A DNA stretch of 64,000 bases, taken from contig NZ_AUFU01000006.1 in the NCBI RefSeq assembly GCF_000426665.1, positions 62,001 through 126,000 of the forward strand. The letters are read 5' to 3'. Below are positions 14,780-19,519 of this stretch, in pieces. The DNA comes from Centipeda artemidis DSM 19719 (GTDB lineage Bacteria > Bacillota > Negativicutes > Selenomonadales > Selenomonadaceae). The translations under genes and the position numbers were made by a program. A model generated the notes under the pieces. The model was not told the DNA's origin. It made no database searches and worked only from the letters and a program-made list of their open reading frames with translations. How positions within the stretch are numbered: position 1 is the first letter of the stretch; each line of letters begins with the position of its first letter.

Positions 14780-16126
14780 TTAGAAGAAGAACTCGACGCG
14801 GCCGAAGAGCTTCTGAACCTTGTCTTTGCCGTTGTCTGGTGCCTCAAGCTGCTTTCCTCTGTAGTACTTCGCGGAGAGCACAACATTCTTGAACAGCGTA
14901 TAGTTCGTGCCAAGCTCAACGCCCTTCGTTCCGAAGAGAGCACCGTCCGTCGTCGGGAAAGCAAGTGATGCGCCGCCGAGGTAACGGTAGGAAGCATATG
15001 CGCCCCACGAGCCCTTATCCGCAGCGTCTGCACCCTTGTACTCATAGGTGACCTGATAAGATTTCTTGTAGTCTTCCAGATCGCTGTTATTTGCATAAGC
15101 GCCGGAGAGCATATTGTTCTTATCAAAGCGGTAGCCAAGGTTCGCCGCCCAGATATTCATCTTATCCTTATTATAATCCTTGGTGAATGCACGAAGCGAT
15201 TCAGCGCTGAGACGATAGTAACCAACGCCCGCCATCAGATTGTCCTTGTTATACTGGAGCTCAACGCCCTGGTAGTTGGCTTTGGTATCGTTCAAGGCTC
15301 TAGCCGCCTCTGCCGCCGACATCTGACCGGTAGCAACGGCATCCGCAATATTCTTGGCAAAAAGATCTGCTCCGGCCGAATCCGCGAGGTCGAGACGACC
15401 TGCCTGCAGCTTGAGCTGGACATCCTTGCCGAAGGAAACCTCCGCGCCCGAGAACTCGTCGTCGAAAACGAGCGCGCCCGGTGCGGCATATGCTTCAGCC
15501 GTCAGGAGCTCCATCTTGCCGAGCTTGACGGTAAAGTTGTCATAATCGCCCTGCGCCCATGCGCGTTTGAGTTTAACGTTGCTGTCGCTGTTGCGGCCGG
15601 ACGCATCATCCTTCATATTCGTCGACGCATCGAGACGCGCGTTTACGTGCCAGTGGCTGTTGACCTCAGCCGACGGCTCAAGACGGAACAGGAGATGGTC
15701 ATCATTCACACGGCTGTGATCCTCATCTTTACGCTCGCTCGTGTAAGTATACTCGAGTTTGCCGTTCCACTTCACCATGTCGGCATTGCGCTCAAGGTTC
15801 GAGACACGGACGCCGAGGTTGTTGAGCTCATCCGCGAACTCAGCAGCAAGGCGGTCAACGAGCGCGCGATCCGATGCGGACATGTCGCCCTTTGCCATTG
15901 CCTTTGCGACCATCTGCGCCATCTCATAACGCGTGATGTTGCGGTCGCCGCGGAACGTGCCGTCGCCGTAGCCCTCAACAACGCCGTCGGCGGCGAGCTG
16001 GGTCACAGCATCGTATGCCCAGTGATCACGGGGCACATCGGAGAACGGGTTTGCAGCAGCGAACGTCGTGCTTGCTGCGCCGACAACGAGAGCCGTTGCC
16101 AGGGCGGATACGAGAGTCTTCTTCAT
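14780..16126 (-). CDS. ompM: OmpM-type outer-membrane porin with SLH domain (copy 1)
   Basis: 448 residues. Signal peptide to about residue 23 (STTFAAANP); one SLH domain at about 25-80 (NPFSDVPRDHWAYDAV, GYGDGTFRGDRNITRYEMAQM), which in Selenomonas and Veillonella binds polyamine-modified peptidoglycan; a short helix (about 83-118, DRLAAEFADELNNLGVRVSNLE) that can trimerise; then a beta-barrel of alternating strands ending VEFFF with a terminal Phe. OmpM proteins tether the outer membrane to the wall and act as porins. It is monocistronic, with a 110-nt leader and its own terminator. The N-terminal 120 residues are nearly identical to the two paralogues upstream; the barrels differ in loops. 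Confidence 0.95.
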   Translation of the reverse strand: MKKTLVSALATALVVGAASTTFAAANPFSDVPRDHWAYDAVTQLAADGVVEGYGDGTFRGDRNITRYEMAQMVAKAMAKGDMSASDRALVDRLAAEFADELNNLGVRVSNLERNADMVKWNGKLEYTYTSERKDEDHSRVNDDHLLFRLEPSAEVNSHWHVNARLDASTNMKDDASGRNSDSNVKLKRAWAQGDYDNFTVKLGKMELLTAEAYAAPGALVFDDEFSGAEVSFGKDVQLKLQAGRLDLADSAGADLFAKNIADAVATGQMSAAEAARALNDTKANYQGVELQYNKDNLMAGVGYYRLSAESLRAFTKDYNKDKMNIWAANLGYRFDKNNMLSGAYANNSDLEDYKKSYQVTYEYKGADAADKGSWGAYASYRYLGGASLAFPTTDGALFGTKGVELGTNYTLFKNVVLSAKYYRGKQLEAPDNGKDKVQKLFGRVEFFF

Positions 16127-16236
16127 GAGAAACTCCTCCTTCTGATAAATAGAAACATCTGATTTCCAAGAAGGAGCGAAACGCCGCTGAAGTGTCCATG
16201 TTTCCTTTTAGCGAAACGTTCTCATCCTCTTGGAAT
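16127..16236 (-). promoter_or_regulatory. Structured 5' leader of ompM copy 1
   Basis: From the predicted start at about 16236 to the ATG. Its 5' end (16228-16235) and a segment at 16164-16171 pair as TTCCAAGA/TCTTGGAA, extended by GGA/TCC past a bulge. In mRNA sense an AGGAAACAUGGACAC block lies between the arms. The same layout is in front of copies 2 and 3. GGAGGAG is the ribosome site. Confidence 0.6.
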
Positions 16237-16242
16237 GGTTTC

Positions 16243-16271
16243 ATCATAGCACGTGAATTAATAAATTGCAA
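16243..16271 (-). promoter_or_regulatory. Promoter of ompM copy 1
   Basis: TTGCAA (16266-16271), 17 bp, TATGAT (16243-16248) on the minus strand, with an A/T-rich upstream stretch. About 85 bp here are almost identical to the promoter of copy 2. The rest of the gap to 16420 shows no gene. Confidence 0.75.
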
Positions 16272-16420
16272 GCATTTCCATGTAAAAAATTTTATACCAG
16301 ACTATAATTTTCACCTTATTTTCAGTGTTTTATATACCGTACTCATCTCTGTTAAAGCGGTATTCGGCACAACGCCCTCTAAAACCTTGAAAAATATCTG
16401 CATCTATTGCAGCGGACAGT

Positions 16421-16455
16421 AAAAATCCCCCTCCAACGATGAAGGGGGATTTTGT
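16421..16455 (-). terminator. Terminator of ompM copy 2
   Basis: AAATCCCCCT and AGGGGGATTT arms around a 10-nt loop, with T-run on the minus strand. Confidence 0.8.
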
Positions 16456-16480
16456 TTTGAGGCGGATGCCGCAAGTATTT

Positions 16481-17827
16481 TTAGAAGAAGAACTCGACGC
16501 GACCGAAGAGCTTCTCCGCCTTGTCGTCAGCCGTCGGTCCGACATAGATCTCCTTGCCGCGGAAATATTTCGCCGAGAGCACCACGTTTTTGAAAAGCGT
16601 GTAGTCCGTACCAACTTCTACGCCCTTCGTATCCCACATAGCACCGTCGCTTGTCGGGAACGGGGAAGCGAATCCGCCGAGTTTGCGGTAGGCAACATAA
16701 GCGCCCCACGATCCCTTATCCTCCGGGTCAGCCCCCTTGTACTCATAGGTGACCTGCCAGGAACTCTTTGCGTTGTCCGCCTTTGTGTTCTCTGCGTAAG
16801 CGCCGGAGAGCATTGCTGCGTCGCCGAATCGGACGCCGCCGTTCACAGCCCAGATATCCGCCTTCGTGTTTCTAAGATTCTCGGCGCTGTTGTTAAGATA
16901 CCGAACCGTATTTCTCCTGTGGAAATGCATCCCTCTGAAATAATTGGAGCCCAGATGGTAGTAGCCCGCCCCCAGCAGGACATTATTCTTGTCATACTGC
17001 AGTTCGACGCCCTGATAGTTCGCCACGTCTTCATCACCCGGCAGGTTGTGCGCACCATGGCCGCCGCCCGGCGCACCGAACGCATCGTCCAGATCAATGC
17101 GGCCGGCCTGCAGTTTGAACTTCAAATCCTTGCCAAAGCTGACCTCGGCACCCGAGAACTCATCGTCGAACACGAGGGCGCCGGGTTTCGCATACGCCTC
17201 GGCAGAGAGCAGTTCCATCTTACCGAGTTTCACCTGGAAGTTGCCGTAGTCTCCCTGTGCATAGAGACGTTTAAGCGTGACCTTGTCCCCGTTGTCATCT
17301 CCCGCGTCCGTGTTCATCTTGGTCTCCGCATCAAGACGTGCGTTCACGTGCCAGTGGCTGTTGATCTCAGCCGACGGCTCGAGACGGAACAAAAGGTTGT
17401 TGTCGTTCGTCTTTGTGTGATTAAACTTCTTGCGCTGACTTGTATATGTATACTCAAGTTTGCCGTTCCACTTCACCATGTCGGCGTTGCGCTCGAGGTT
17501 CGAGACGCGGACGCCGAGGTTGTTGAGCTCGTCTGCGAACTCAGCGGCAAGGCGGTCAACGAGCGCGCGATCCGATGCGGACATATCGCCCTTTGCCATC
17601 GCCTTTGCGACCATCTGCGCCATCTCGTAGCGCGTAATGTTGCGGTCACCGCGGAATGTGCCGTCGCCGTAGCCCTCAACGACACCGTCGGCGGCGAGCT
17701 GCGTCACGGCATCGTATGCCCAGTGATCACGGGGCACATCGGAGAACGGGTTCGCTGCGGCGAACGTCGTGCTTGCTGCACCGACAACGAACGCCGCTGC
17801 CAGCGTGGATACAAAAGTCTTCTTCAT
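16481..17827 (-). CDS. ompM: OmpM-type outer-membrane porin with SLH domain (copy 2)
   Basis: 448 residues from MKKTFVSTLAAAF; the ATG at 17827 has GGAGG upstream and aligns with copies 1 and 3, while the longer open frame starts inside the leader. Same architecture: signal peptide, one SLH domain, connecting helix, beta-barrel ending VEFFF. The barrel has its own features, such as a His/Gly-rich loop (GAPGGGHGAHNL, about residue 250) and a loop FRGMHFHRRN, which could bind metal or reflect antigenic variation. Own promoter, leader and terminator. Confidence 0.94.
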   Translation of the reverse strand: MKKTFVSTLAAAFVVGAASTTFAAANPFSDVPRDHWAYDAVTQLAADGVVEGYGDGTFRGDRNITRYEMAQMVAKAMAKGDMSASDRALVDRLAAEFADELNNLGVRVSNLERNADMVKWNGKLEYTYTSQRKKFNHTKTNDNNLLFRLEPSAEINSHWHVNARLDAETKMNTDAGDDNGDKVTLKRLYAQGDYGNFQVKLGKMELLSAEAYAKPGALVFDDEFSGAEVSFGKDLKFKLQAGRIDLDDAFGAPGGGHGAHNLPGDEDVANYQGVELQYDKNNVLLGAGYYHLGSNYFRGMHFHRRNTVRYLNNSAENLRNTKADIWAVNGGVRFGDAAMLSGAYAENTKADNAKSSWQVTYEYKGADPEDKGSWGAYVAYRKLGGFASPFPTSDGAMWDTKGVEVGTDYTLFKNVVLSAKYFRGKEIYVGPTADDKAEKLFGRVEFFF

Positions 17828-17937
17828 GAGAACCTCCTCCTTCTGATCCATAGAATCTGATCGTGTTCCAAAATGATTACAGGTCAGCGGCAGTGTCCTT
17901 ATTTTCCTATCGCGAACCATTCTCATTCTCTTGGAAC
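17828..17937 (-). promoter_or_regulatory. Structured 5' leader of ompM copy 2
   Basis: Arms at 17865-17871 and 17931-17937 pair GTTCCAA/TTGGAAC, and inside them AATGA pairs with TCATT where the other leaders have AGGA/TCCT, a compensatory difference. The AGGAAAATAAGGACAC block is conserved between the arms. Confidence 0.6.
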
Positions 17938-17943
17938 GTTTTC

Positions 17944-17972
17944 ATCATAGCACGTGGATTAATAAATTGCAA
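17944..17972 (-). promoter_or_regulatory. Promoter of ompM copy 2
   Basis: TTGCAA (17967-17972), 17 bp, TATGAT (17944-17949). The surrounding region repeats the copy 1 promoter with about two mismatches over 85 bp. Confidence 0.75.
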
Positions 17973-18059
17973 GCATTTCTATGTAAAAAATTTTATACCA
18001 GACTATAATTTTCACCTTATTTTCAGTTGAATGTGACTCTGTGTCCGTCAACAGACAGC

Positions 18060-18095
18060 AAAAATCCCCCTCCCTAAGGAGGGGGATGGATTTTG
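18060..18095 (-). terminator. Terminator of ompM copy 3
   Basis: ATCCCCCTCC-CTAA-GGAGGGGGAT hairpin flanked by A/T runs, about 35 nt past the stop. Confidence 0.8.
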
Positions 18096-18127
18096 CGATA
18101 TCCGCTCCGACCGGTGCCGGATGCGGG

Positions 18128-19411
18128 TTAGAACATGAACTGTACGCGGCCGAAAAGCTTCTGCACCTTGTCGTTCTGCTGTGCTTCAATGGTCTTGCCG
18201 TTGAAGTACTTCGCAGAAAGTACAACGTTCTTGAACGGCGTATAGTTCGTACCGATCTCAAGCCCCTTCGAGCCAATGAGCGCGCCGTCGTCCGTTGCAA
18301 AGATTGACGCGCCGCCGAGGTAACGATACGCGGCGTATGCGCCCCACGAGCCTTTATCCGCAGCATCGGCACCCTTGTACTCATAGCCGAACTGATAGGA
18401 CTTCTTGTTTTTGCTGCCGTCAATATCGTTGTTGTTGGCATATGCACCGGAGAGCATACTGTTCTTGTCAAAGCGATAGCCAAGGTTCGCCGCCCAGATA
18501 TTCATCTTATCCTTGCCGTTCTTCGTCACAGCAGTGAAATTGTCCGATCCGAGACGGTAGTACGCGGCACCCGCCATGAGACCGCCCTTGTTGTACTGGA
18601 GTTCCGCACCCTGATAGTTCGCGGTATCGCTGCTCCCGAGCTGATTCGTCTTAACGCCGTCATACGCGCCGTCGAGGTTCAGGCGGCCTGCCTGGAGTTT
18701 CAGCTTGACATCCCCGCCAAAGCTCGCCTCTGCACCGGAGAACTCCTTATCGAATACGAGAGCGCCGGGGGCTGCATAGCCCTCTGCAGAATAGAGCTCC
18801 ATTTTACCGAGCTTGACGTCGAAGTTGTCATAGGCACCCTCTGCCCATGCGCGCTTGAGTTTGACATTGCTGTCGCTGTTGTTGCCGGACGCGTCGTCTT
18901 TCATATTCGTAGAGGCATCAAGACGTGCGTTCACGTGCCAGTGGTCATTGATCTCAGCGGACGGGTCGAGACGGAACAAGAGGTTGTTGTCGTTCTTGCG
19001 ATCCTGTCCCTCAAGGCGATTGCTGGTGTAGGTATAGCGGAGCTGTCCTCTCCACTGCACCATGTCGGCATTGCGCTCGAGGTTGGAGACACGGACGCCG
19101 AGGTTGTTGAGTTCATCGGCGAACTCAGCGGCAAGGCGGTCAACGAGCGCGCGATCCGACGCGGACATATCGCTCTTTGCCATCGCCTTTGCGACCATCT
19201 GCGCCATCTCGTAACGGGTGATGTTGCGGTCACCGCGGAATGTACCGTCGCCGTACCCCTCGACAACGCCGTCAGCGGCAAGTTTGGTTACGGCATCGTA
19301 TGCCCAGTGGTCACGGGGCACATCGGAAAACGGGTTGGACGCGGCGAAGGTTGTGCTTGCTGCACCGACAACAAGTGCCGTCGCCAGCGCAGATACGAGA
19401 GTCTTTTTCAT
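18128..19411 (-). CDS. ompM: OmpM-type outer-membrane porin with SLH domain (copy 3)
   Basis: 427 residues from MKKTLVSALATALVVG; the ATG at 19411 is set by GGAGGAG upstream and by alignment with the other copies. Signal peptide, one SLH domain (NPFSDVPRDHWAYDAV), connecting helix and beta-barrel ending GRVQFMF. The shared NMKDDASG..SDSNVKLKRAWA segment makes it closer to copy 1 than copy 2 in the barrel. As the most upstream copy it has a less similar promoter but a matching leader hairpin. Confidence 0.94.
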   Translation of the reverse strand: MKKTLVSALATALVVGAASTTFAASNPFSDVPRDHWAYDAVTKLAADGVVEGYGDGTFRGDRNITRYEMAQMVAKAMAKSDMSASDRALVDRLAAEFADELNNLGVRVSNLERNADMVQWRGQLRYTYTSNRLEGQDRKNDNNLLFRLDPSAEINDHWHVNARLDASTNMKDDASGNNSDSNVKLKRAWAEGAYDNFDVKLGKMELYSAEGYAAPGALVFDKEFSGAEASFGGDVKLKLQAGRLNLDGAYDGVKTNQLGSSDTANYQGAELQYNKGGLMAGAAYYRLGSDNFTAVTKNGKDKMNIWAANLGYRFDKNSMLSGAYANNNDIDGSKNKKSYQFGYEYKGADAADKGSWGAYAAYRYLGGASIFATDDGALIGSKGLEIGTNYTPFKNVVLSAKYFNGKTIEAQQNDKVQKLFGRVQFMF

Positions 19412-19519
19412 GATAAACTCCTCCTTTTGATCCATAGAATCTGATCGTGTTCCAAAAGGATTGCCGGCCGCGAAAGTGTCCTTGTTTCCTTTTCGCACCT
19501 TGTGCTTTCCTCTTGGATT
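19412..19519 (-). promoter_or_regulatory. Structured 5' leader of ompM copy 3
   Basis: Arms at 19451-19460 and 19508-19517 pair TCCAA-A-AGGA with TCCT-C-TTGGA, nine pairs and one mismatch. The internal AGGAAACAAGGACAC block matches the other leaders although the flanking sequence has diverged. Confidence 0.6.

Follow-up and report, generated by a model that had tools for sequence, protein, structure and literature searches.

The mRNA of the abundant Escherichia coli outer-membrane protein OmpA carries a stabilizing hairpin in its 5′ leader, and the CsrA-bound leaders of hag and glgC present GGA in a hairpin loop, with control exerted at the Shine–Dalgarno sequence (SD). Here we describe an RNA element predicted in the 5′ leaders of three tandem ompM porin genes of Centipeda artemidis DSM 19719, located in a 64,000-nucleotide stretch of contig NZ_AUFU01000006.1 (assembly GCF_000426665.1, positions 62,001 to 126,000; hereafter the window) and first pointed out in an earlier note made from the sequence alone. 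The element resembles the ompA leader in placing a 5′ hairpin on the mRNA of an abundant outer-membrane protein; to our knowledge, however, the ompA leader, which comes from a different lineage, has neither a phylum-wide invariant loop nor a 3′ arm complementary to the SD (anti-SD). With the hag and glgC leaders it shares a GGA in the loop and predicted control at the SD, but the distribution of CsrA does not match that of the element.

The nearest published counterpart is the SLH motif, a riboswitch candidate described from Synergistaceae, Clostridia and Negativicutes; of its 80 examples, about 60% lie upstream of SLH-domain genes and the others precede genes whose function is unknown, and cyclic di-GMP (c-di-GMP) was guessed as its ligand (Stav et al. 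2019, PMC6429828). Both are predicted cis-regulatory RNAs of Negativicutes in front of SLH-domain genes and, judged by distribution and gene context, the element is very probably the SLH motif. The earlier claim that no element of this kind had been described in Negativicutes is then probably wrong, and the element itself has probably been named already. The passages of PMC6429828 drawn on here suggest c-di-GMP and name no outer-membrane link or SD switch for this motif.

Other leader RNAs that occur in Negativicutes, Veillonella included (the gltD, ldh2, ilvD and potE motifs), differ in preceding other genes (PMC8632094, in the parts used here), and the terms porin, outer membrane and S-layer are absent from the main texts of PMC8632094 and PMC11109978. 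In the literature searched, we came upon no description of how the synthesis of outer-membrane proteins is adjusted in two-membrane Firmicutes; what appears new, as far as those searches reach, is the set of target genes, the proposed SD switch and the dismissal of two candidate partners. Searches with Rfam 15 returned only a tRNA above threshold in the window, only sub-threshold matches of eukaryotic type in the copy 1 leader, and a group II intron only among 13 loci.

A near-invariant loop caps the ompM leader hairpins

As the earlier note had claimed, the 5′ end of each of the three leaders folds onto a segment about 50–60 nt downstream. The minimum free energies of the hairpin part were −24.7, −22.9 and −24.6 kcal/mol for copies 1, 2 and 3, with z-scores against dinucleotide shuffles of −2.75, −3.86 and −4.16 (4, 0 and 0 of 200 shuffles each folded equally well). 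The exchange of AGGA/UCCU for AAUGA/UCAUU between the arms of different copies is real, and the conserved block reported between the arms coincides with the apical loop, although the spacing given for it breaks down in copy 2, which has one extra loop base. SLH (7.2e-14) and Porin_5 (6.8e-6) matches in Pfam, together with the closest PDB structure, 8bys (E 7.8e-43), identify copy 1 at the sequence level as a true OmpM.

We gathered ompM loci by protein similarity rather than by motif and then scanned their upstream regions; 144 ompM starts gave 124 unique regions after removal of duplicates and of starts with less than 130 nt upstream. The loop consensus AGGAAACAnGGAnACU was present with at most one mismatch over its 14 specified positions in 116 of the 124 (0 mismatches in 92, 1 in 24, 2 in 2 and 3–6 in 6), while the best case among shuffled regions (one shuffle per region) still had 3 mismatches. 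Written as AGGAAACA-n-GGA-n-ACU and closed by A-U and G-C pairs, the loop comprises two GGAnAC copies 8 nt apart. Column statistics were drawn from the 118 leaders with two or fewer loop mismatches: A1, G2, G3, A5, A6, C7, G10, G11, C15 and U16 were invariant (118/118), positions 9 and 13 were free and A12 was variable. Five ompM leaders (L008, two genes of L013, L020 and L029) had 3–6 loop mismatches; some of them retain a GGAAACACAG-like block, and the upstream region of L029 spans only 149 nt.

This conservation bears on the simplest alternative, a constitutive 5′ stabilizing hairpin as in E. coli ompA, which would protect abundant porin mRNAs without any switching. A strong hairpin at the predicted 5′ end of genes for abundant proteins is what such a stabilizer would look like; a near-invariant loop (116/124 ompM leaders), however, would be needless for it, as would covariation between 3′ arm and SD (see below), and we consider this alternative unlikely.

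Covariation was measured in two alignments, A1 (79 representatives of the 118 leaders) and A2 (96 leaders drawn from other families within the class and the phylum, filtered by motif and signal peptide; 97 less one spurious element, L245 +). Upper-stem covariation in A1 was 0.347, compared with 0.162 (sd 0.015) in shuffled and 0.10–0.20 in slid alignments (n = 79); for the continuous stem in A2 it was 0.404, compared with 0.164 (sd 0.016) and 0.07–0.22, respectively (n = 96). Because rows were preselected by motif, the loop invariance of A1 and A2 is partly built in, whereas the 124-region count is free of this effect. The loop-closing pair (−1:+1) was paired in 98% of leaders (z 11 versus permuted partners). 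One structure for all leaders was rejected: the first set, that of the ompM leaders, fits a bulge at −3 (69.8% paired bulged versus 64.4% continuous), whereas the 96 leaders of A2 fit a continuous stem (79.2% paired versus 70.2% bulged). RNAalifold predicted no pairs on the first set beyond the three innermost.

The outer arms, trimmed to exclude the linker, preferred their own partner over swapped ones in 116 leaders with usable spacing (z −26.8), in 56 diverse leaders (z −17.5; three are also in the first set, and L185, judged a false match, is included) and in a nonredundant merged set (z −29.5, n = 134). Among tandem genes, own-arm pairing was the better in 35 of 36 comparisons. Covariation in other species, which had been proposed as a check, is thus strongly present in both stem and outer arms, and together with loop conservation it supports the earlier idea that major outer-membrane proteins share an RNA element under selection.

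Distribution and target genes

A covariance model of the element (R1; its E-values are rough) matched two of the three window leaders in the C. artemidis genome, as well as an ompM pair on another contig. Window copy 2 was missed, and a further match (C7, E 0.06) was judged false, as it lies inside a 627-nt open frame. Across the class, R1 matched 186 of 200 genomes (E ≤ 0.1, a few of which may be chance) and 77 of 82 genera; across the phylum it matched 66 of 299 genomes (E ≤ 0.01), 58 of them outside the window’s class. Omp85, a mark of the outer membrane, was found in 76 of the 299, and R1 and Omp85 occurred together in 60 of the 66 R1 genomes (Fisher p 9e-41). The six R1-only genomes scored weakly (E 0.0017 or higher); in the three that were examined, the matches (L184, L185 and L187) were judged false, with no outer-membrane gene following. 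Loci L188–L190 (G027, G036) and seven f55 genomes have outer-membrane markers or ompM and no R1 match; L188 retains a diverged GAGAGGAAATTAGGAACACTC.

In 40 phylum stretches, a called gene lay within 250 nt after the element in 37, and 36 of these 37 genes began with a signal peptide, as judged from the listing. No gene was called after L163, L184 or L187, and the gene after L185 looks unrelated; the L163 match (L163:1605) has a strong loop and stem. A second collection (L194–L261) comprised loci of 13 genomes (70 R1 matches) and one G222 locus. Here 66 elements (67 less one spurious row, L245 +) were upstream of signal-peptide-like genes under a permissive pattern, 53 of SLH type by sequence pattern and 13 not. 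The position upstream of SLH-domain genes described for the SLH motif in PMC6429828 is thus seen in 53 of 66 elements, and the remaining targets differ in being other signal-peptide proteins, some of them porin-like. Eight further loop matches had no gene call: L200, L204, L206 and L219 at a locus end, L212 and L248 on the opposite strand, and also L233 and L250, the last of which sits before a broken ompM (by eye).

Nine non-SLH targets were scanned against protein families; three matched Porin_4 above the cut-off, two gave weak, sub-cut-off matches of barrel type and four gave none. There is thus good support for an outer-membrane identity of the SLH-type targets and of some others, and the remaining targets are presumably outer-membrane proteins as well. 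We regard the element as a real and widespread cis-regulatory RNA, predicted mostly on outer-membrane porin mRNAs. A loop so well conserved, recurring in porin-type mRNAs across many families, points to a single regulator to look for and, if the element is the SLH motif, an orphan riboswitch candidate would be recast from an S-layer to an outer-membrane element.

The 3′ arm is complementary to the Shine–Dalgarno sequence

The 3′ arm of copy 1 contains CUCCUUCU, a perfect 8-nt complement of the SD AGAAGGAG, and that of copy 3, UCCUUUUG, faces the SD CAAAAGGA; in copy 1, the 3′ arm pairs with the SD once the 5′ part is removed in silico. Copy 2 has no exact anti-SD in its 3′ arm. In other genomes, the anti-SD/SD pair was CUUCCUUAGG/CCUAAGGAGG in L111 and CUCCUAGUU/AACUAGGGG in L168, each including a G-U pair, and CCCUCAGUU/AACUGAGGG in L150. 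A CTCC or TCCT anti-SD occurred in 75 of 116 3′ arms, versus 18.3 (sd 3.8) in shuffled arms.

The 3′ arm also tracked the SD of its own leader, pairing with it at −11.5 kcal/mol, versus −9.8 for swapped and −6.3 for shuffled partners (z −10.5, n = 116); this preference recurred in the diverse leaders (z −5.6, n = 56) and the nonredundant merged set (z −11.5, n = 134). As a control, the 5′ arm had no preference for its own SD (z +1.4 in the first set, −1.2 with n = 56 and −1.3 with n = 134). In the merged set, shuffled 3′ arms gave z −0.9, −3.3 and −1.4 and reversed 3′ arms z −2.9; base composition thus explains a little of the SD signal, given the shuffled set at −3.3 and the reversed arms. 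The linker paired with its own SD region weakly above chance (z −5.3). Between tandem paralogues, self SD pairing was better in 20 cases, worse in 8 and tied in 3 (Wilcoxon p 0.011). Four loci (L007, L014, L015 and L018) have a second short hairpin immediately 5′ of the SD (such as GCGGGA..TCCCGC).

Of the 3′-arm bases that pair with the SD, more than expected also pair with the 5′ arm (75% versus 58%, 162 leaders). Since the 3′ arm is an anti-SD that covaries with its own SD, formation of the hairpin and sequestration of the SD would be mutually exclusive; as in riboswitches and attenuators, the computed alternatives include one that hides the SD. When the 5′ arm and loop were deleted in silico, the SD became less open in 100 of 118 leaders (mean openness 0.19, from 0.38 in the full leader) and in 37 of 43 leaders of another set (0.27, from 0.48). 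Openness came back to 0.37 (n = 118) and 0.38 (n = 43) once the 3′ arm of these shortened RNAs was shuffled, and full leaders with a shuffled 5′ arm had openness of 0.23 (n = 118) and 0.34 (n = 43). Competition of an anti-SD arm with the 5′ arm is, in our view, the best-supported feature; the functions first listed for the element (mRNA stability, small-RNA target or protein site) had left it out.

A proposed translation switch for outer-membrane proteins

The best explanation of these comparisons, and one that we judge reasonably probable, is that the element switches the translation of outer-membrane protein mRNAs at the RNA level, with its loop read by a putative factor. Each ompM mRNA would open with a long imperfect hairpin capped by the near-invariant loop. 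In the ON state the 5′ arm would hold the 3′ arm and leave the ribosome site open; in the OFF state the 3′ arm would be released and cover the SD. A trans-acting factor common to the two-membrane Firmicutes, more probably an RNA-binding protein than a small ligand, would read the loop and set the balance between ON and OFF, and the synthesis of outer-membrane proteins would be adjusted as one group. Sequence comparison shows the element and its loop, the covariation, the link to SLH-porin and other signal-peptide genes and the covarying complementarity to the SD; we infer that the switch works in living cells, which way it acts, and that there is a factor of the kind proposed.

Several points weigh against a translation switch. 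At about −21 kcal/mol, the hairpin far outweighs the SD pairing, at about −11 kcal/mol, so the OFF state would need an active trigger. Tandem paralogues give modest support for SD pairing, and most of the non-SLH targets are candidate outer-membrane proteins rather than proven ones. No element match was obtained in 16 of the 76 Omp85-bearing phylum genomes or in 14 of the 200 class genomes, and the element therefore seems dispensable in some lineages. Copy 2 combines an extra loop base with no clear anti-SD, despite its strong hairpin; loss of one end of the proposed switch may have gone along with loss of the other, although this is a single case. Finally, the support is wholly computed, and the candidate binding factor is a postulated one.

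A broader proposal, which we put forward tentatively and with some doubt, is that two-membrane Firmicutes share an ancient post-transcriptional outer-membrane system consisting of one hairpin, a dedicated factor and an anti-SD switch. If true, it would be a counterpart, built from unrelated parts, to the control of proteobacterial porins by sigma-E and small RNAs.

Candidate readers of the loop

Stav et al. proposed a metabolite riboswitch for the SLH motif, with c-di-GMP as the suggested ligand (PMC6429828). Publication of the motif as a riboswitch candidate agrees with the combination of a conserved loop and a computed SD-sequestering expression platform, but the candidate aptamer is very small. 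Of 25 genomes that carry the element, 13 gave no GGDEF match and only 10 had one above the family cut-off. With no GGDEF match in those 13, c-di-GMP cannot be the general ligand and was rejected as such; another ligand is possible, and a metabolite riboswitch seems to us unlikely. Should the element be the SLH motif, its suggested ligand would be removed as a general partner.

The loop’s two GGA motifs, at positions 2–4 and 10–12, are ANGGA-like and could be taken for a CsrA site, and the C. artemidis genome encodes CsrA. Yet 101 of the 200 class genomes had a CsrA match, versus 186 of 200 with the element (E ≤ 0.1), and 87 element-bearing class genomes had no CsrA match (a hand count from two listings), on which ground CsrA was rejected as the general partner. 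The conserved bases also reach well past GGA, and A12 varies. Recognition by CsrA is hardly credible as a general rule.

Porin mRNAs are classic targets of small RNAs in other bacteria, and a trans-acting small RNA might pair with the loop. The variable positions 9 and 13 inside the loop are, however, ill-suited to one constant pairing partner, which makes this alternative quite improbable. We infer from these free positions and the doubled GGAnAC that recognition by a protein is favoured, as in the translation switch set out above.

The loop might instead be conserved as part of a translated leader, in which either an upstream open reading frame (uORF) begins at the loop or the porin itself is extended at its N terminus. 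Loop positions 8–10 are ATG in 75 of 118 leaders, GTG in 7 and TTG in 3, and in this mostly Selenomonadaceae set 43 of 85 loop starts were in the porin frame, 32 of them open, compared with 14 and 11 open in the other frames. The remaining 33 of 118 have no start codon at these positions, however, and the frame excess is absent from the diverse set (55 leaders), in which 27 had a start codon, open in the porin frame in 3 and in the other frames in 3 and 4. The 28 uORFs that stop earlier are scattered in length (6 to 27 codons); in the window, the loops of copies 2 and 3 contain no start codon and the one in copy 1 lies outside the porin frame. Translation of the leader was rejected as a general explanation on these counts and is very improbable, although an in-frame N-terminal extension in some Selenomonadaceae-type leaders (32/118) is possible.

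Promoters and features of the window

The promoter-like boxes of copies 1 and 2, TTGCAA-17-TATGAT, match the consensus at 9 of 12 positions and, by consensus only, place the start about 7 nt past the boxes, right at the left arm. Promoter-like sites were not enriched across the whole scanned region (6 versus 4.6, sd 1.9, in shuffles). Among related leaders, a −10 match (at least 5/6) was present in 92 of 116, as a raw count without shuffle comparison, and its commonest position ended 36 nt before the loop. Coordinates are collected in Table 1.

Table 1 Features of the three ompM copies, in window coordinates
Feature	Position	Strand	Basis or remark
ompM copy 1	14780..16126	−	448 aa; SLH + Porin_5
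ompM copy 2, start MKKTFVS	16481..17827	−	Open reading frame (listed from upstream in-frame start) and protein match
ompM copy 3, start MKKTLVS	18128..19411	−	Open reading frame (listed from upstream in-frame start) and protein match
Leader RNA, copy 1 (predicted start to base before ATG)	16127..16236	−	Promoter-like boxes ending 16243; fold
Leader RNA, copy 2	17828..17938	−	Fold z −3.86; not matched by R1
Leader RNA, copy 3	19412..19519	−	Fold z −4.16; R1 match
Promoter-like TTGCAA-17-TATGAT, copy 1	16243..16271	−	Consensus scan only
Promoter-like TTGCAA-17-TATGAT, copy 2	17944..17972	−	Consensus scan only
5′ hairpin arm, copy 1	16221..16235	−	Fold
Apical loop AGGAAACATGGACACT, copy 1	16191..16206	−	Loop consensus; R1 E 3.0e-6
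3′ arm, copy 1	16164..16178	−	Contains anti-SD CTCCTTCT at 16169-16176
SD region AGAAGGAG, copy 1	16136..16143	−	Complement of anti-SD
Outer arms, copy 2	17923-17937 (5′) / 17865-17876 (3′)	−	Fold
Loop AGGAAAATAAGGACACT, copy 2	17892-17908	−	17 nt, one base more than consensus
5′ arm, copy 3	19508..19517	−	Fold
Apical loop AGGAAACAAGGACACT, copy 3	19475..19490	−	Loop consensus; R1 E 2.4e-6
3′ arm, copy 3	19451..19460	−	Anti-SD TCCTTTTG at 19453-19460
SD region CAAAAGGA, copy 3	19422..19429	−	Faces anti-SD TCCTTTTG

Outside the window, a stretch upstream of ompM in L031 (L031:1977-2149) matched group II intron D1-D4-3 (E 8.8e-29). Within it, the promoter regions of copies 1 and 2 (16243-16320 and 17944-18020) differ by about 2 in roughly 75 bases, by eye, and this near-identity suggests a recent duplication or conversion.

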